Assembly (NCBI GenBank): GCA_040902225.1 | Contig: JBBDXT010000002.1 | Location: 94,036 to 158,035 of the forward strand | Origin: Chloroflexota bacterium | GTDB lineage: Bacteria > Chloroflexota > Limnocylindria > QHBO01 | DNA: 64,000 nucleotides | Direction of reading: 5' to 3' | Shown: positions 1 to 16,385 of the stretch, in pieces | How positions within the stretch are numbered: the stretch's first letter is position 1 | Layout: every line of letters starts with the position of its first letter | Program-made: the position numbers and the translations under genes | Notes under the pieces: generated by a model | What the model saw: the letters and a program-made list of their open reading frames with translations, nothing else | Told to the model about the DNA's origin: nothing | Database searches by the model: none

Positions 1-815
1 AGGAGAGCGGCGGCGCCGTCATTGATCCCGCTGCTGTTGCCCGCGGTTACCGATCCAGACGCATCACGCTTGAAGGCAGGCTTCAGCGCAGCGAGTTGCT
101 CGAGAGTGGTGTCCGGCCGGGGGTGCTCGTCACGGTCCACCGTCGTGGTGGCGCCTCTGGCACCGGGCGCCTCGATCGGCACCACCTCGTCGCCGAAGCG
201 ACCTGCCGCGCGCGCCGCGGCCCAGCGCTGGTGCGATTCGAACGCGAATCGGTCCTGGTCCTCGCGGGTGACGCCACAGCGCTCAACAACGTTCTCGGCG
301 GTCTCGCCCATCGAATAGGGGTAGTAGGCATCCGCCAGGCGCGGGTTGGTGAAGCGCCAGCCCAGGGTCGTGTCGTACAGGGTCTGCTCGCCTCGCGGGA
401 AGGCGGCGGATGCCTTGGCCATCACGAACGGGGCCCGGGTCATCGACTCCACGCCCCCGGCCACGAACAGGTCACCGTCGCCCGAGGTAATGGCATGAGC
501 GGCGCCGATGACCGCCTGCATCCCCGATCCGCACAGCCGGTTGACGGTCTGGCCGGCCACCTCGATCGGCATCCCGGCAAGCAGTGCAGCCATTCGACCG
601 ACATTGCGATTGTCCTCGCCGGCCTGGTTGGCAGCCCCCAGGATCACGTCGTCGACGGCAGCGGGTTCCACGCCGGTGCGCTCGAGGAGCGCACGGATAA
701 CGTGCGCGGCCATGTCGTCCGGCCTGACCTCGCGCAGGGCGCCGCCGTAGCGGCCGAACGGCGTGCGCAGCCCGTCGACGACCACGGGGGTGCGGGCTGG
801 TTCGTGCTGGCGCAT
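1..815 (-). CDS. Acetyl-CoA/beta-ketoadipyl-CoA thiolase, C-terminus cut by window edge
   Basis: Thiolase that would cleave a 3-ketoacyl-CoA with CoA in the last step of beta-oxidation or phenylacetate-type degradation. The visible 271 residues start [20 protein letters not shown]. They carry the nucleophilic cysteine at about residue 95 in [11 protein letters not shown], then [11 protein letters not shown], as in PaaJ/PcaF thiolases. The His and second-Cys motifs of the C-terminal half lie outside the window. It is transcribed away from the FAD oxidase that begins 39 bp away. It fits with the PaaF/G/H-like enzymes at 6-9 kb, although it is not in their operon. Exact chain-length specificity cannot be read from this part. 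Confidence 0.93.
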
Positions 816-853
816 CAGGCGTGGATGCTAGCACCGGGTTAGGATCGCGCGAC

Positions 854-2290
854 GTGACCGCCCTAGCGCCACATGAGCTGCCGATCCCCGGCCAACGCCG
901 CGCCTGGTGGCTGCGCGAGGCGCTGGCCGCGGAACATCCGAGCCTGCTCGCTCCCTCGCTCTTCGGGGAGGTGAGCGCGGACGTGGCGATCGTCGGCGGC
1001 GGCTACACCGGGATGTGGACCGCCTATTTCCTGGGCGAGATTGCGCCCGAGATGCGGATCGTCCTGCTCGAGGCGGACATCTGCGGCGGCGGCCCGAGCG
1101 GTCGCAACGGAGGGTTCCTACACGGCTGGTGGGAGTACCTCCCATTCCTGGCCAAGCGCTACGGGGCGGCCGAGGGCCTGCGCATCGCCGAGGCCGCGGA
1201 CGAGGTCGTGACCGGCATCGGCGATTGGTGCAAGCGTCATGGGGTCGATGCCCACTTCGCGCCCGATGGATACCTGCGCGTCAATGCATTCCCGAAGGTC
1301 GCCAACGACTGGGGCGAGTCAATCGCAGATCTCGATCGACTGGGGGCGCCGGGTGTGCTCCGGCACATGGACCGGGAGGCGGTCCAGCAGATATGCGCTT
1401 CCCCGGCATTCGGTGAGGGCGTCTTCATGCCCAGCGCCGCGACGGTCCAGCCGGCGCTCCTGGCTCGGGGCTTGAGGCGCGTCCTGCTGGAGCGCGGGGT
1501 CCAGATCCACGAGGGAACCACGGTCGAGCGGATGGATCCGCGGGCGAGCGGCATGCACCTGAAGACACCCCGCGGCACTGTGCGAGCGGATCGCGTCGTG
1601 CTCGCGGTGAACGCCTGGGCCGCCGGCTGGCCGGGCTTCTGGACCCGGGTCCTCGCGTGGGGCAGCTACATGGTGGTGACCGAGCCGATCCCCGACCGGC
1701 TTGCCGAACTCGGCTGGACCGGTGGCGAGGCGATCGCCGATTCGCGCTTCACGATCAGCTACTTCCGAACCACGCGCGACGGTCGCATCGCATTTGGTGC
1801 CGGCGTCGGCGCGGCCGGCTTCGACGGGCGCATCGGTCCCATCTTCACGCACGACCGCCAGGCGATCGCGCGGGTGGTCGCCAACTTTCGCCACCTTTTC
1901 CCGATGCTCGGAGACGTTCGGATGGAGGATGCCTGGGGCGGGCCGATCGACATCACCGCTGATCGCTTCCCCGAGATCGGCTCAACCGATGGCGGTCGCG
2001 TGCTGTACGCGCATGGCTTCGCCGGCAACGGGGTGGGGCCCGCCCGCCTGGCGGGACGCATCCTCGCCGCTCGCATCGCCGGCGGTGGCGACCCGATCGC
2101 CCTCCTCCCGCTCTTCGGCCGGCGCCAGCGATTCCTGCCTCCCGAGCCGTTCCGCTTCGTCGGGGCACGCGCCATCCGCGAGGCGCTGATCCGACAGGAC
2201 GACGCGCTGGATGCCGGGCGTCGACCGGGACTGCTCACCCAGGTGGTGGCGCGCGTGCCGAGTCTCCTCGGATATCGGTTCAAGCATTAG
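854..2290 (+). CDS. FAD-dependent amine/amino-acid oxidase (DAO family, PuuB-like)
   Basis: Flavoprotein of the D-amino-acid oxidase family, probably oxidising an amine or N-substituted amino acid. The FAD-binding glycine motif VAIVGGGYTGMWTAYF is near residues 32-47, followed by the family motif GPSGRNGGF. Residues near the C-terminus (HGFAGNGVGPARLAG) form the second FAD contact. I chose the GTG at 854, giving 478 aa, because TAGGAT lies 8 nt upstream as in the leaderless genes here; an in-frame GTG at 821 is possible. A PotD/B/C-like importer follows directly and a PuuD-like hydrolase lies at 41.3 kb. A gamma-glutamylputrescine-type substrate is therefore plausible, but this is inference from context. 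Confidence 0.9.
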   Translation: MTALAPHELPIPGQRRAWWLREALAAEHPSLLAPSLFGEVSADVAIVGGGYTGMWTAYFLGEIAPEMRIVLLEADICGGGPSGRNGGFLHGWWEYLPFLAKRYGAAEGLRIAEAADEVVTGIGDWCKRHGVDAHFAPDGYLRVNAFPKVANDWGESIADLDRLGAPGVLRHMDREAVQQICASPAFGEGVFMPSAATVQPALLARGLRRVLLERGVQIHEGTTVERMDPRASGMHLKTPRGTVRADRVVLAVNAWAAGWPGFWTRVLAWGSYMVVTEPIPDRLAELGWTGGEAIADSRFTISYFRTTRDGRIAFGAGVGAAGFDGRIGPIFTHDRQAIARVVANFRHLFPMLGDVRMEDAWGGPIDITADRFPEIGSTDGGRVLYAHGFAGNGVGPARLAGRILAARIAGGGDPIALLPLFGRRQRFLPPEPFRFVGARAIREALIRQDDALDAGRRPGLLTQVVARVPSLLGYRFKH

Positions 2291-2300
2291 GGTGTAAGCG

Positions 2301-2330
2301 TTGACCGCGCCGATGGCCGCGGCGTAGGAT
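2301..2330 (+). promoter_or_regulatory. Housekeeping promoter of the PotD-like transporter operon
   Basis: TTGACC at 2301-2306 and TAGGAT at 2325-2330 are separated by 18 bp, a good sigma70-type arrangement. Transcription would start near 2337, leaving a short leader with a GAGGAG ribosome site at 2348-2353 before the GTG start at 2361. This is one of the few genes here with a recognisable -35 box. Confidence 0.6.
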
Positions 2331-2360
2331 CGCGCAATCCAACCCTTGAGGAGACCGCCC

Positions 2361-3416
2361 GTGCCCGCACGATTCGCCCCTGTCCGCACAATTCTCGCGA
2401 TCTTCGTCGGCAGCATGCTGATCCTGGCCGCCTGTGCCGCACCCAACAAGCTCCTCGTCCTGGAGTGGAGCGGGTACGAAGAGGAAGACTTCTGGACCGA
2501 TTTCAAGGAGGCCAATCCCGACGCTGCGGTGACCTTCGAGCCCGGCAGCTCGGATGCGGACGTCCTCGGCAAGATGGAGCAGGGCAGCCAGGCCGACATC
2601 TTCCACTTCTACACCGGCTGGCAGCAGCTCTTTGTCGATGCGGGGCTGGCAAAGGAGATCGACACCAGCAAGCTGACCAACTGGGACAAGGTGCCGCAGA
2701 GCTTCCAGGACCTGGGCAAGGTCGACGGCAAGCAGTACTTCGTTCCGTGGGACTGGGGCTTCACCTCGATCCTCTACAACACCGATCAGGTTGCCAGCGT
2801 CGAGAGCTGGGACATCCTCTTCGATGAAACCTATGCCGGCCACATCTCGATGTGGGATGACGGGCCCGCGGCGGTGACCGTGTCCTCCTATATCCATGGC
2901 TGGGACGAGGAGGCGATCACCGACGAGCAGCTGGCGGAGGCAGAGCAGGAGTGGAAGGACCAGAAGGCCCTGAACTTCAAGTACTGGGCCGACGAGTACG
3001 CGGACCTCTGCCCCGATGTTGAAGGGGGCGACATCTGGGTGGCCTACGCGTGGCAGGGCTGCTACGCGCAGACCCTCTACAACGAGAGCCAGCCGGTTGC
3101 CTACGCGACCCCCAAGGAGGGGCGCAACTCGTGGGTGGGCCTGTACGGCATCAGCGCCGACACCGCCAACTACGACCTGGCGCTCGAGTTCCTGGACATG
3201 AAGCTGGCGACGCTGACCTGCAGCAACGCGGTGACCCTCTTCTACTACGGCTGCGCCAACCAGGAGGTCATGGACGCGATCGAGGACCCGGTCCTGATCG
3301 AGGCCTTCGGCATCGACGACCCGTCGATCCTGGAGAGCACCAACTTCACGCCGCCCGTCACCGACGCACAGCGGGAGGCGTGGACCGAGATGTGGGCGAA
3401 CGTCAAGGCCGACTAG
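2361..3416 (+). CDS. Spermidine/putrescine ABC transporter substrate-binding lipoprotein (PotD-like)
   Basis: Extracellular solute-binding protein of the polyamine (PotD/PotF) type. It delivers substrate to the two permeases encoded directly downstream. A lipoprotein signal ends in the lipobox LAAC near residue 25, so it should be membrane anchored. The mature part begins with LLVLEWSGYEEEDFW and has the acidic and aromatic pocket residues (PWDWGFTSILYN, WDILFD) typical of the family. The GTG at 2361 is preferred over an upstream TTG (2346) because GAGGAG lies 7 nt before it. Mature length fits the family. The ATPase subunit is not in this window, so it must be encoded elsewhere or shared. 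Confidence 0.92.
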   Translation: MPARFAPVRTILAIFVGSMLILAACAAPNKLLVLEWSGYEEEDFWTDFKEANPDAAVTFEPGSSDADVLGKMEQGSQADIFHFYTGWQQLFVDAGLAKEIDTSKLTNWDKVPQSFQDLGKVDGKQYFVPWDWGFTSILYNTDQVASVESWDILFDETYAGHISMWDDGPAAVTVSSYIHGWDEEAITDEQLAEAEQEWKDQKALNFKYWADEYADLCPDVEGGDIWVAYAWQGCYAQTLYNESQPVAYATPKEGRNSWVGLYGISADTANYDLALEFLDMKLATLTCSNAVTLFYYGCANQEVMDAIEDPVLIEAFGIDDPSILESTNFTPPVTDAQREAWTEMWANVKAD

Positions 3417-3434
3417 CAGCGCGCGTCTAGACCG

Positions 3435-4295
3435 ATGCTCGGACGGCGAGGAAGCCTTCGGTTCCTCGCCGTCCCTCCGTTCGCCTGGCTGATCCTTTTC
3501 TTCGTCGCGCCCCTCCTGCTCGCAATACTCATCAGCTTCCGGGGCGAACGCGGCCCGATCGACTTCGGCAGCCTTCTGCAGCTCTCGACGCTCCAGTACG
3601 AGAAGGTCGTCGACTCGCCGTCGTGGGTGCGGCTGCTGGGCATTTCGGCCGTCATGGCCCTGATCGTCGCCGCGATGGCGACCGTGCTCGCCTTCCCGAT
3701 CGCCTATTTCCTGGCTTTTCGGGCGCGCCATCGGGCGCCGATCTTCCTGGTGCTCCTTCTCGTGCCGGCCGCGACGAGCTTCCTGATGCGGGTTTTGGCC
3801 TGGAAGCTGCTCCTCGGCAGCAGCGGCGCCATCAACTCGTTCCTGGTCTGGATCGGTGTCATCCATGAGCCGATCGGCCTGCTTCTCTACTCGCAGGCGG
3901 CGGTGGTGATCACGCTTGTCTACGTCTGGATCCCGTTCGCCGCGCTGCCGATCTACGCCGCGCTGCAACGGGTGGATCGCAGCCACCTGGAGGCTGCCGC
4001 CGACCTCGGCTCCGGCCCCTGGTCGCGGTTCTGGCGGGTGACCGTCCCCCTCAGCCTGCCGGGGGTGCTGGCGACCTTCTTCATGGTCTTCATCCCGACC
4101 ATCGGTGAATACGTGACGCCGTTCCTCGTGGGCGGCACCGAGGGGATCATGTACGGCAACCTGATCCAGGACTTCTTCACGCGGGCCGGCAACTGGCCCC
4201 TGGGGTCGGCACTGGCGGTGATCATGCTGGTGGTGACCCTGGCGCTCGTGGCGATCGCCCTCCGCATCGTCGACCTGCGCAGGGCGGTGGCATGA
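3435..4295 (+). CDS. Polyamine ABC transporter permease (PotB-like)
   Basis: Inner-membrane permease of 286 aa with about six transmembrane segments. The EAA loop that docks the ATPase reads EAAADLGSGPWSRFWRVTVP near residue 185. It starts 18 nt after the binding-protein gene and its 3' end overlaps the second permease by 4 nt (ATGA), so the three genes form one operon. The PotB assignment rests on order and on the conserved FIPTIGEYVTPFLVGG stretch. Confidence 0.93.
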   Translation: MLGRRGSLRFLAVPPFAWLILFFVAPLLLAILISFRGERGPIDFGSLLQLSTLQYEKVVDSPSWVRLLGISAVMALIVAAMATVLAFPIAYFLAFRARHRAPIFLVLLLVPAATSFLMRVLAWKLLLGSSGAINSFLVWIGVIHEPIGLLLYSQAAVVITLVYVWIPFAALPIYAALQRVDRSHLEAAADLGSGPWSRFWRVTVPLSLPGVLATFFMVFIPTIGEYVTPFLVGGTEGIMYGNLIQDFFTRAGNWPLGSALAVIMLVVTLALVAIALRIVDLRRAVA

Positions 4296-11992: not shown

Positions 11993-12868
11993 ATGCCCGA
12001 ACGCCCGCCGCTCATCGTCGCTGCCGCGACGCCGCTGGGCCCCGGTGGCGATGCGCTCGACGAGGCCGCGATCTGGCCGATGGTGCGCTTCCTGGAGGAT
12101 CGCGGCGCCGACGGGGTCTTTGCCTGCGGCACCACCGGCGAGGGGATCCTGCTCAGCACCGAGGAACGCAGGCGGGCGGCGGGCGTATTCCGCGCGGCGG
12201 TTCGTGGGCGACTGATCGTGCACTGCGGAGCGCAGACGACCGCGGAGACGGTCTTGCTGGCCGCCCACGCGGGCGAGATCGCGGCCGATGCGGTCGCGGT
12301 GATCCCGCCTCCGTACTTCCCGCTCGATGACGATGCGCTGACGGCGCATCTGCTGGCTGCCGCCGAGGCCTGCGCCCCGCTCCCCTTCTACATCTATGCC
12401 TTCGCCGCTCGCAGCGGGTATCCGGTCCCGCTCGAGGTGGTGGCCCGCGTCCGCGACGGTGCCAGGAACCTGGCAGGCCTCAAGGTCAGCGAGTCCCCCT
12501 TCCTGAAGGTCGAGCCGTATCTCGACCTCGGATTGCCGGTCTACATCGGCTCCGAGCCGCTCATCCCGGCCGCCATGGCTCGTGGCGCGCTGGGCGCGGT
12601 GTCAGGCCTGGCCGCGGCGTTCCCCGAGGTCGTTCGTGACGCGCTTGACGCGCCCGACACGATCGCCGAGTCACGCCTGCGCACCCTGCGCTCCGCCATG
12701 GAGACGCACCCCTTCATCGCCTCGGTGAAACACGTTCTCCGACGTCGAGGGGTCCCCATCCACCCGGACCTGCGAGCGCCGCTGCGCGCGCTGACCGCGG
12801 CCGAGGGCGCCGCCCTGGACTCGGTGCTCGGCGAGCTGGACCCAGATTTCCCGCTCGACGAGGGCTAG
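11993..12868 (+). CDS. DapA-family lyase (dihydrodipicolinate synthase/N-acetylneuraminate lyase type)
   Basis: 291-aa class I aldolase of the DapA superfamily. It has [18 protein letters not shown], where the GTTGE substrate loop is conserved. The Tyr is in FYIYAF and the Schiff-base Lys in LAGLKVSES. It could be a sugar-acid aldolase or another family member; true DapA cannot be claimed. TACCCT ends 7 nt before the ATG, a leaderless arrangement. The stop overlaps the convergent oxidoreductase gamma gene by 4 nt in a shared CTAG. Confidence 0.88.
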
Positions 12869-13488
12869 CCCGACTCCCCCACTCCGCCGATATCCATCGC
12901 GCCTCCGGTTCCCACCCCCGTTCGACGGTGGTGCGGCGCGGTGGCCGCGTCGTTCATCTCGAACCGGCTCGGCGGGGCCGCAGCGGCCAGCCGTGCGATC
13001 TCCTCGGCCGTCAGCTCGTACCCGAAGCGGATCGCGGCCACGTTCTCCTCGACAAAGCGATGTGGCAGCGACTCGCGGATCGAGGGCTCGTCGAACTCGA
13101 TTGCGGCCAGTCGCAGCAGGCGGCCCAGCGCGATCATGTTGCCGAACAGCTCCCTGCCGAAATGCTCGCTGCCCAGGGTCGCGAAGGGGATCTGCTCGTC
13201 GCCCGGGCGGCCGAGGCCGAGATCGGTCACGACCTTGCGCCCGCTGATGCGCAGATGCCCTCTATCGGCGAGCTTCAGCAGGATGTCGGCCTCTTCGACC
13301 ACGGGGTTGGCGATCGGCTCGTCGTCGAAGATGACGAATGCGTCGGACATGCTGCCGCGCACGCTCGAGTCGTAATCGAAGAGGACGGTGACCTGTTTGC
13401 CCATCCGCGCCAGCAGCGCGCCGAGGACGCCGGCAATCAGTCGCACCCCCTGGCCACCGACCCCGTCAAGCGCGATCCGCGTCGTCAC
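12865..13488 (-). CDS. 2-oxoacid:ferredoxin oxidoreductase, gamma subunit
   Basis: 207-aa gamma subunit. It opens with IALDGVGGQGVRLIAGVLG, the conserved nucleotide/CoA-binding glycine motif. DYDSSVRGSMSDAFVIFDDE and FGNMIALGRLL are typical of KorC/OorC. It is the last gene of the delta-alpha-beta-gamma operon. Its GTG start overlaps the beta stop by 4 nt. The last 30 residues are poorly conserved and glycine-rich. Confidence 0.94.
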   Translation of the reverse strand: MTTRIALDGVGGQGVRLIAGVLGALLARMGKQVTVLFDYDSSVRGSMSDAFVIFDDEPIANPVVEEADILLKLADRGHLRISGRKVVTDLGLGRPGDEQIPFATLGSEHFGRELFGNMIALGRLLRLAAIEFDEPSIRESLPHRFVEENVAAIRFGYELTAEEIARLAAAAPPSRFEMNDAATAPHHRRTGVGTGGAMDIGGVGESG

Positions 13489-14933
13489 GTGATCGCGTCG
13501 GGGTCGATGCCGGCCGCGCGCAGCGCATCGGCAAGGGTCATCTCCCCCTTGGCCACCCGCAGCTTCACGTCAGAGGGGAGGCGCTGCATCAGCGCCAGCT
13601 TGCGCTGGGCCACCGCCCGCTTGGACTCCTTCGGATCGGCGGGCATGGAGGGAGGCGCGGCATCGTGCGCAGTGTGCGGCGCGGCTGGCTGCGTGTCGCT
13701 ACCAACCGTCCCGCCGATCAGGTTGCGCTCTTCGACCGCCGCCTCCGCCTTCTGGGCATCGAGCTCAGTTGGCTGCTCTTCCGTGTGCGGGTCCTGGCCG
13801 GTGGCGCTGATCTGCACTTCGCCGGGTGCCACCGGAGCACCGGACGGGGCGCTGGCGCCGGTCCGCAGCCACTCGGGGATCGGGATCCCCGCCTGCGTCA
13901 GCGCATCGGTCAGGGTCAGCTCCTTCTTCGCCACGGCGAGCTTGACCTCGGCCGAGAGCTGAGCCATGACCGCCGCCCGCTCCTGGGATTCCGCCCTGCG
14001 CCGGGCCTTCTCGTCGTCCGTCGCGGGCGTCGCGGCCCCGGTGGCCCCCGTCGCACCGGGCGACTCGGTGGCGGACGCCATCGGTCCCGCCGGCTGTTGC
14101 GGCAGAGCTGCCGGTCGCTCCGGCGTGCTGGTGGTTCCCGCGCCGTTCCCATTCGTGCTGCCCGCATCGGCCGGCCGCGGGGAGAGGATCCCGATCTCGA
14201 ATGGATTGAGGTGCTCAGCGTCCTTGGCCGCGCGCTTGTAGGTCTTGCGGTAGAAGTTGAGCATGTCATTGGCGCTGGCAAAGCCGATGCGTCGCCCGTT
14301 GTTCTCGATGCACTGGCTGGTGATGTCCACGAAGCTGAAGCCGGGGTGCTCGATCGCCTCGCGGATGACATTCCGCATGTGGAGCTGGTGGTAGACGGTC
14401 GTCTTGGCGTACAACGCCTGCGGCGAGGAGCGGACCAGGCCCTGCAGGTTGATCGGCGTATTCGGGTTGCCGGCGGGGGAGGAGAGGGTCTTGGTGCCGG
14501 TCGGGGTGGTCGGCCCGGTCTGCCCCCCGGTCAGGCCATAGATCTCGTTGTTGTTGCAGAGCACCGTCAACGGCGCATTGCGGCGAATGGCGTGGATCAG
14601 GTGATTGCCGCCGATGCTGGCTGTGTCGCCGTCCCCCGCCACCACCACGACGTGCATCTCGGGGCGAACGGCCTTGATCGCCTCGGCCACCGGCAGGGTG
14701 CGGCCGTGGAGCGTGTAGACGCTCTCGAACTTCATGTAGCTGCCCATCCTGCCGGTGCAGCCGATCCCGGTGACCAGGATCGTGTTCGTCTCGTCCATCC
14801 CCATCTCGTCGAGGACCATGGCTAGCTCGATCATGATGGTGCCGATCCCGCAGCCTGGGCACCAGATGGTCGGGAACAGGTCGACCTTCAGGTGCCGCTT
14901 GAAGTCGAGCTCGGCGAAGGGTGCCTCCGGCAT
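13485..14933 (-). CDS. 2-oxoacid:ferredoxin oxidoreductase, beta subunit with long repeated C-terminal extension
   Basis: Thiamine-diphosphate subunit that decarboxylates a 2-oxoacid and passes electrons to ferredoxin. Residues 1-250 are a standard beta subunit. Cluster cysteines are in CPGCG (25, 28), C59 and C208, and the ThDP/Mg site is GDGDTASIGGNH with NNNEIYG. The protein is 482 aa against about 280-350 in the family. After residue 255 comes a Pro/Ala/Gly linker. Two copies of a helical module follow, near 305-350 and 433-477, each ending VKL-x-VAK-x-E-(L/M)TL-x-DAL-x2-AGI. The ATG start overlaps the alpha stop (TGATG). The tail function is unknown; I see no frameshift producing it. Confidence 0.92.
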   Translation of the reverse strand: MPEAPFAELDFKRHLKVDLFPTIWCPGCGIGTIMIELAMVLDEMGMDETNTILVTGIGCTGRMGSYMKFESVYTLHGRTLPVAEAIKAVRPEMHVVVVAGDGDTASIGGNHLIHAIRRNAPLTVLCNNNEIYGLTGGQTGPTTPTGTKTLSSPAGNPNTPINLQGLVRSSPQALYAKTTVYHQLHMRNVIREAIEHPGFSFVDITSQCIENNGRRIGFASANDMLNFYRKTYKRAAKDAEHLNPFEIGILSPRPADAGSTNGNGAGTTSTPERPAALPQQPAGPMASATESPGATGATGAATPATDDEKARRRAESQERAAVMAQLSAEVKLAVAKKELTLTDALTQAGIPIPEWLRTGASAPSGAPVAPGEVQISATGQDPHTEEQPTELDAQKAEAAVEERNLIGGTVGSDTQPAAPHTAHDAAPPSMPADPKESKRAVAQRKLALMQRLPSDVKLRVAKGEMTLADALRAAGIDPDAIT

Positions 14934-16069
14934 CAGCCGATCCCCAGCGGCGAGCGCTCGACCGCCTCCATGGGAGCGGCCGGGATGGGTGGCTCCGAGG
15001 GACCGCCGCCGAGCACGCGGTCGAGCCCGTCGCACACCGCCTCCAGGCTGATCCGCCCGCCCAGCAGCGGGACGCGCTTCACCTCGCGACGCAAGGCCAG
15101 CTCGACCATGTCGGCGTATTGGCCGTCGTTGGCCTCGATGCACACGATCTGCTCGTAGCGCTCCGCGATGGCGCGCAGCTCATCGGTCAGCATCGGGTGG
15201 ATCCGGATCGGGCGGAAGAGGGCGTGCTCGGTCGAGAGCGGCGATGCGACCCGGCTGACGATCCCGTAGCAGACGATGAGTACCTTGGCGTCGCGATTCC
15301 AGCCGTGCTCGTAGAGCGCGTATCGCTCAGCCACCTCGGTGTGCCGATGCTTGGCGTCGTAGTACTGGCGCAGGTACTCATCGGCGTCGGCGGTGGCGGG
15401 CTCGCCGGCGTTCGGCCCCTGCTCGTACATGACCACACCCGCGAAGAAGCGCGGCTTGCCCGGCTCGTGCTCCCCCAACGGCACGAGGCTGCGCGGCACG
15501 ATCTCGATGCTGGCCGCCACCTCGTCCAGGTCGACCACCTCGTTGAGGTGCGCCACGAACGTGTCCGACAGGATGACGACCGGCGAGAGCGACTCCTCGG
15601 CGGCGTTGAAGGCCTGCACGGTGACGCGGAATGCCTCCTCGACCCCATTGGGATAGAAGGCGAGCGGGGTGTAGTCGCCGGTGCTCCCGTAGCGGACCTG
15701 CATGATGTCGCCCTGGCCGGGCATCGTCGGCATCCCCGTCGCGGGGCCGACTCGCTGGACGTCGACGAAGACGCATGGCACGCCGACCTTCTGGGCGTAG
15801 CCGACCGCCTCCTGCATCAGGCTGAAGCCCGGCCCGCTGGTGGCGGTGAACGCCTTCGCGCCGGCCAGGCTTGCGCCGATGATGGCGTTGGCGCTGGCGA
15901 TCTCATCCTCCGCCTGCAGGAAGTGGAACTCCGCATGTTCGGCTGCCCAGCCGGAGGCGACGTTGAGGATCTCCGTCGACGGGGAGATCGGGTAGCCGGC
16001 GTAGTACGACGCCCCCGCGGCGAGCGCTCCGCGGAAGACGGCCTCGTTGCCCTGGGTCAGCTTCCGCAT
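14933..16069 (-). CDS. 2-oxoacid:ferredoxin oxidoreductase, alpha subunit
   Basis: 378-aa alpha subunit that forms the active site with the beta subunit. It begins MRKLTQGNEAVFRGALAAGA with the YYAGYPISPSTEI signature, followed by QAEDEIASANAIIGAS and GPGFSLMQEAVGYA. The ATG at 16069 lies 4 nt after the delta stop. KorA, VorB and related subunits share these motifs, so the 2-oxoacid (2-oxoglutarate, branched-chain or aryl) is not determined. The acyl-CoA enzymes nearby would fit any acyl-CoA product. Confidence 0.94.
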   Translation of the reverse strand: MRKLTQGNEAVFRGALAAGASYYAGYPISPSTEILNVASGWAAEHAEFHFLQAEDEIASANAIIGASLAGAKAFTATSGPGFSLMQEAVGYAQKVGVPCVFVDVQRVGPATGMPTMPGQGDIMQVRYGSTGDYTPLAFYPNGVEEAFRVTVQAFNAAEESLSPVVILSDTFVAHLNEVVDLDEVAASIEIVPRSLVPLGEHEPGKPRFFAGVVMYEQGPNAGEPATADADEYLRQYYDAKHRHTEVAERYALYEHGWNRDAKVLIVCYGIVSRVASPLSTEHALFRPIRIHPMLTDELRAIAERYEQIVCIEANDGQYADMVELALRREVKRVPLLGGRISLEAVCDGLDRVLGGGPSEPPIPAAPMEAVERSPLGIG

Positions 16070-16073
16070 CGGC

Positions 16074-16385
16074 CTAGGAAGAGTCCGCGGTCGAGCCGCC
16101 GCGCGCCGCGTGAGCGGCAACCGCCTCAGGCAGCATCTCGATGGCGAGGTCGGGGCAGTAGCGCTCGCAGAGCCCGCACAGGATGCAATCCTGCTCCTCG
16201 ATGATGGCGTCGTTGCGCAGGACGAGCGTGTTCTTGGGGCAGATCTCGACGCAGATGTCGCAGCGCTTGCAGAAGACCGGGTTCCAGCTGATGTTCGAGT
16301 AGTCGACCCAGCGGATCCCGTCCTTGTGGTCGTCGGAGATCCCGGAGCCGAAGCCGATTGGGTCCGAGGCGCCTTCGCGAGTCAT
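16074..16385 (-). CDS. 2-oxoacid:ferredoxin oxidoreductase, delta (ferredoxin) subunit
   Basis: 103-aa two-cluster ferredoxin subunit with CKRCDICVEICP and CILCGLCERYCP. It is first in the operon, so the order is delta, alpha, beta, gamma. TAGAAT (16395-16400 on the plus strand) is 9 nt before the ATG without a ribosome site, so the operon mRNA is probably leaderless. N- and C-terminal ends outside the cluster domain are not conserved. Confidence 0.94.
   Translation of the reverse strand: MTREGASDPIGFGSGISDDHKDGIRWVDYSNISWNPVFCKRCDICVEICPKNTLVLRNDAIIEEQDCILCGLCERYCPDLAIEMLPEAVAAHAARGGSTADSS

Follow-up and report, generated by a model that had tools for sequence, protein, structure and literature searches.

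Ordinary beta subunits of 2-oxoacid:ferredoxin oxidoreductases (OFOR) end near residue 300, so what could one of them do with about 230 further residues that hold the same small module twice? The question is raised by the window, a stretch of 64,000 nucleotides from a 2.28-Mb, 99% complete Chloroflexota genome, for which a preliminary description from the sequence alone had reported such a tail. The gene, korB, belongs to a tight korD-korA-korB-korC operon on the minus strand. Its reading frame runs from 14933 to 13485, opens with MPEAPFAEL and closes with a stop codon at 13485-13487; korA and korB overlap by 1 base, and the start of korC overlaps the stop of korB by 4 nt (GTGA).

16074..16385, minus strand: korD-like ferredoxin subunit with two [4Fe-4S] clusters (ORF, family model, neighbourhood comparison)
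14933..16069, minus strand: korA, alpha subunit (ORF and family model)
13485..14933, minus strand: korB, 2-oxoacid:ferredoxin oxidoreductase beta subunit, 482 aa (ORF and start; PF02775, E 2.5e-28; PorB_KorB/KorB models)
12865..13488, minus strand: korC, gamma subunit (ORF and family model)

The N-terminal part of the protein is conventional. TPP_enzyme_C (PF02775) was matched with 99.2 bits, above its cut-off of 21.9, and the CxGCG - GDG - C motif for TPP and [4Fe-4S], as defined in PMC2773412, is present as C25PGC28G, G100DGD103 and C208. Genes for the alpha, gamma and ferredoxin subunits share the operon with korB, as in the operons of other KorB/PorB beta subunits (PDB 8ys5, 5b46 and 6n2n), which have the same catalytic core. 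The curated NCBIfam PorB_KorB cut-off was missed (195.9 bits vs 261.9, with the alignment ending at residue 212), and "KorB" is therefore used here as a superfamily name. Judged on these matches, the core clearly belongs to the OFOR beta superfamily and lies outside the curated PorB_KorB subfamily model. Similarity to beta subunits in Pfam, NCBIfam and PDB sequences stops at residues 212-248, placing the end of the core near residue 250. The boundary had been put at 14250 (about residue 229), which is still part of the core; residue 251 (14183) is approximately where the tail starts. Solved beta chains (8ys5, 5b46, 6n2n) have 273-305 aa and most of those from the sister family about 260-298 aa, whereas KorB of the window has roughly 230 more residues, including two modules of no known family. 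Its parts are as follows:

14184..14933, minus strand: catalytic TPP/[4Fe-4S] core, residues 1-250, with C25-P-G-C28-G, C59, GDGD 100-103 and C208 (domain matches, PDB-sequence matches, motif)
14019..14183, minus strand: linker 1, residues 251-305, 80% P/A/G/S/T, predicted disordered (AlphaFold2, composition)
13857..14018, minus strand: module 1, residues 306-359, four predicted helices (repeat alignment, hhalign, AlphaFold2 pLDDT about 84-92)
13635..13856, minus strand: linker 2, residues 360-433, mostly disordered (alignment of relatives; dN/dS, see below)
13488..13634, minus strand: module 2, residues 434-482, same helix pattern, reaching the protein end (repeat alignment, hhalign, AlphaFold2 pLDDT about 70-90)

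The duplication claimed for the tail could be confirmed. The pattern VKL-x-VAK-x-E-(L/M)TL-x-DAL-x2-AGI had been given exactly; it reads VKLAVAKKELTLTDALTQAGI in module 1 and VKLRVAKGEMTLADALRAAGI in module 2. The two modules share 23 identities over 44 aligned residues, and their alignment score of 105 far exceeds that of 300 shuffles (mean 24, maximum 44). Scores of 102-145 in the ten two-copy KorBs compared indicate that the homology holds in close relatives as well, and hhalign aligned the module 1 and module 2 profiles with a probability of 99.7% (E 7e-27), the second profile also including single-copy modules. By sequence comparison, modules 1 and 2 are true paralogues. The predicted helical nature of the modules was also borne out, since AlphaFold2 of the isolated tail placed four helices in each, at residues 306-325, 328-335, 341-348 and 354-359 and at residues 434-451, 454-461, 467-473 and 478-481. 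The limits first proposed (about 305-350 and 433-477) were right in location and slightly too short, as helices extend to 359 and 481. Across the linkers the pLDDT was mostly below 50, and a pTM of 0.31 gives no confident placement of the modules relative to each other. The tail-only model was relied on, since the full-length prediction of KorB modelled the core poorly (mean pLDDT 54), a shallow alignment being the probable cause.

Could such a tail be merely tolerated? Nine positions (R7, M17, L20, K25, A29, E32, A38, A42 and G43 in alignment numbering) show no variation across the 24 module copies, and in the same set charged R, K and E vary little or not at all. Median dN/dS by a simple counting method was 0.17 for the core, 0.30 for module 1 and 0.18 for module 2; the linkers gave 0.43 (linker 1) and 0.24 (linker 2). 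On these estimates purifying selection is acting on the tail (dN/dS about 0.2-0.4), and it is very likely that the tail is translated and under constraint. If the tail were instead a lineage-specific extension that is largely dispensable, held by weak selection and without a dedicated partner, this could explain why single-module forms turn up at separate places in the tree, why linker lengths vary and why the sister family has no tail. Nevertheless, this explanation appears rather improbable, because the dN/dS of the modules is close to that of the core, the charged residues hardly vary, and no genome of the family has a KorB without the module.

The distribution of the module is just as strict. 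A module profile found two copies in 12, one copy in four and none in six of 22 family genomes; the module was present in all 16 genomes having the tail-bearing KorB, and the six without it are exactly those that lack this KorB (G001, G004, G016, G017, G018 and G020). Missing KorB in some of these genomes may reflect incomplete assemblies. G004, which is 94% complete, lacks it nevertheless, so that the operon appears to be dispensable in part of the family. Among 177 class genomes, the family included, no match at E <= 0.001 fell outside the family, and among 400 phylum genomes only four partial matches of chance quality lay outside it, none of them a reliable copy on a protein other than KorB. 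Partial weak matches in C4 of the genome itself and at L086-L089 were rejected as relatives, being different proteins in about the number expected by chance for 400 genomes. The sister family keeps the korDABC operon with a KorB free of the module, and a distant KorB paralogue in the class (340-345 aa) has an unrelated C-terminus. Within the class and phylum genomes searched, the module is confined by profile search to one Chloroflexota family, and KorBs elsewhere, among the sequences examined, do not commonly have the tail. The spacing of the genes differs in some relatives: where the window has a 4-nt overlap, a gap or unrelated reading frames separate korB and korC at L041 (3780-4060), L043 (1182-1530) and L045 (4422-5060).

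No named family could be attached to the module. The tail gave at most chance-level matches against Pfam, NCBIfam and PDB sequences; an NCBIfam scan with the modules, run to E 10, matched no family, PHROGs gave weak matches only, and none of 137 pattern matches in a viral collection was a relative. Foldseek against the PDB yielded no usable structural relative (best E 1.6), and literature searches found no account of the KorB tail. The module is an orphan helical domain without a named family. A likeness to actinobacterial IHF was discarded after no match to NF041260 and no genome match above the cut-off were obtained. Relocation from KorC was considered for the sister-family C-terminus FAERYAERVLAGTAPAEAVEQA, which is similar by eye, and was rejected because the hhalign scores lay within the shuffled null. 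This segment, an extra helix-turn-helix-like end of the sister-family KorC (L047-L075), showed no homology to the KorB module when profiles were compared. The rhythm of VAKGE-TLADALREAGI is itself that of a helix-turn-helix, and weak Foldseek or profile matches to ParB (27 residues), sigma factors and a possible helix-turn-helix frame in L086 would be consistent with nucleic-acid-binding units that give the enzyme a regulatory side role. This seems very improbable: every Foldseek E-value exceeded 1, no helix-turn-helix family or actinobacterial IHF was matched above the cut-off, and several module-2 copies stop just after AGIDPE, leaving no space for a full recognition helix.

The trees and alignments suggest how the repeat arose. 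In the module tree, built on few columns and moderately supported, all module 1 copies stand apart from module 2 copies (88/96), so that the duplication probably predates the radiation of the family. In the core tree the tail-bearing clade is fully supported (100/100), with the single-module proteins scattered within it. The single-module tails are chimeric, module-1-like in the first ten columns and module-2-like in the last ones, with a later switch point in L014 than in the other three, and most two-module relatives have the linker 2 elements SATG.DP, ELDAQKAEAA and DTQPA.PRTA.DA in common. These sequence features favour one early duplication followed by in-frame deletions between the repeats. 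Present-day repeats are 54-63% identical at the DNA level, and recent homologous recombination would thus need short matches. The reverse history, with a single-module ancestor, may apply to some lineages.

The position of the tail invites comparison with known OFOR extensions. In PFOR, domain VII forms a long arm over the other subunit, seen in DaPFOR, and the C-terminal helix of the Sulfolobus OFOR (StOFOR) beta subunit spans the other subunit in a resembling way (PMC5020499); domain VII has about 62 residues and a Cys1195-Cys1212 disulfide (PMC8945911). Both are, like the KorB tail, C-terminal extensions after the TPP domain (PMC5020499, PMC8945911). The KorB tail differs in its two predicted folded modules, its long linkers and its lack of cysteine (14 of 14 tails examined) and of a sequence match: the phmmer alignment of KorB to 1b0p ends at residue 1091 of the latter, before domain VII. 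The missing match and the missing disulfide cysteines together argue that the tail is not domain VII. KorAB of M. tuberculosis is likewise a ferredoxin-dependent 2-oxoacid oxidoreductase; it differs in having a fused alpha/gamma subunit, and the passages of PMC2773412 consulted mention no comparable tail.

We propose, tentatively and with a probability of roughly 0.4, that the tail serves the KorABCD 2-oxoacid:ferredoxin oxidoreductase as a tethered docking arm, specific to the lineage, whose modules make contacts inside the same complex. Small conserved units predicted to fold and carried on flexible Pro/Ala/Gly-rich linkers have the layout of such an arm. Each module would fold on its own and make weak, repeated contacts with a surface of its own enzyme complex; a different Kor subunit or the second protomer is the likeliest site. 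The arm would leave the core at the point from which domain VII in PFOR, and the C-terminal helix of the beta subunit in Sulfolobus OFOR, cross to the other subunit, and by this analogy a contact across protomers or with KorA/KorC may be the likeliest use. The second module could raise the local concentration or bridge two sites; a single one is presumably enough in four species. The strict tie between module and KorB (16 of 16 genomes with both, six without either, no reliable copy elsewhere) suggests a partner within the enzyme complex, and the tail appears to act with the KorB enzyme rather than as a general adaptor. KorA and KorC of the tail-bearing family end in conserved C-terminal peptides that are absent from the tail-less sister family and could for this reason be candidate ligands of the modules. 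Against the arm acting within the complex stand the copy number, which is one or two among members, and a fold with no known relative from which the ligand could be named.

The C-terminal peptides themselves follow variable linkers: the extreme end of KorA (window 14936-15000) is family-conserved, such as RSPLG(I/V)G, and that of KorC (window 12868-12930) is mostly E(S/T)G. The sister-family KorD (L047, L050, L055) has a conserved C-terminal tail of its own, ARGPAVAGTDPHRG(M/I)TD.ES..., with no counterpart in the family of the window.

Linkers of 55 and 74 residues exceed what an intra-complex contact needs, so that an external partner would fit as well. The modules could dock an electron acceptor or the next enzyme, the arm acting by fly-casting to raise the partner's local concentration at KorAB. 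Long P/A/G-rich linkers with repeated small modules resemble tethered docking arms, of which the 2-oxoacid dehydrogenase E2 is an example. Its Ala/Pro-rich swinging linkers and small helical docking unit offer a functional analogy only, in a different enzyme class; the E2 peripheral-subunit-binding domain was absent from the Pfam matches of KorB (E up to 10) and of the 24 module copies (E up to 1). At a distance of about 3 kb there is a gene for a dicluster ferredoxin, which several relatives also have close to korB. Five of the six family genomes that lack this KorB encode the ferredoxin too, and its distribution is not tail-specific; the operon already has its own ferredoxin subunit, KorD, and the tail is net acidic in nearly all members while module 1 is neutral, which gives no obvious dock for an acidic ferredoxin. 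The earlier suggestion of docking helices is therefore a reasonable one by analogy, its ferredoxin-specific form finds no support, and an external partner in general remains somewhat doubtful.

The tail could also drive higher-order assembly into clusters, filaments or a metabolon through module-module or module-enzyme contacts. A dimeric complex would display four modules, two from each beta subunit, on flexible spacers, a multivalent arrangement, and the genome encodes several E1-type dehydrogenases as potential metabolon partners. Such assembly is nevertheless unlikely, as AlphaFold2 gave no confident module-module contact and single-module species occur. Assembly into larger particles had been suggested; for known particle types it finds no support, as neither encapsulin (PF04454) nor microcompartment (PF00936) shell proteins were found in the 99% complete genome, and a shell cargo tag was rejected on the same ground. 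Among the proteins examined for an E1_dh match was L096 (frame 1-3693, from the C7:27429-28403 region of the same genome), a 1226-aa protein that by eye looks to be of the actinobacterial Kgd/OdhA-like type, with an E2 acyltransferase-like domain fused to an E1 2-oxoglutarate dehydrogenase. If it is a Kgd-type dehydrogenase, as it seems, KorABCD coexists with a dehydrogenase route.

Returning to the docking arm, the locus presents a known enzyme with a new tail, an orphan duplicated domain on an OFOR beta subunit. A more far-reaching reading, which we regard as doubtful, is that an undescribed small helical domain arose and was duplicated once in one Chloroflexota family to form a multivalent tether that organises KorABCD assembly or channels electrons towards one dedicated partner, with no counterpart among known ferredoxin oxidoreductases. 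The solved structures of OFOR beta subunits from central carbon metabolism are compact, whereas this KorB carries a grafted, conserved and repeated docking-like module. The zero-, one- and two-module states within the class make the effect of copy number testable with natural proteins, and the KorB tail would show, in a natural example, how an enzyme of this kind gains a tethered partner or assembly.
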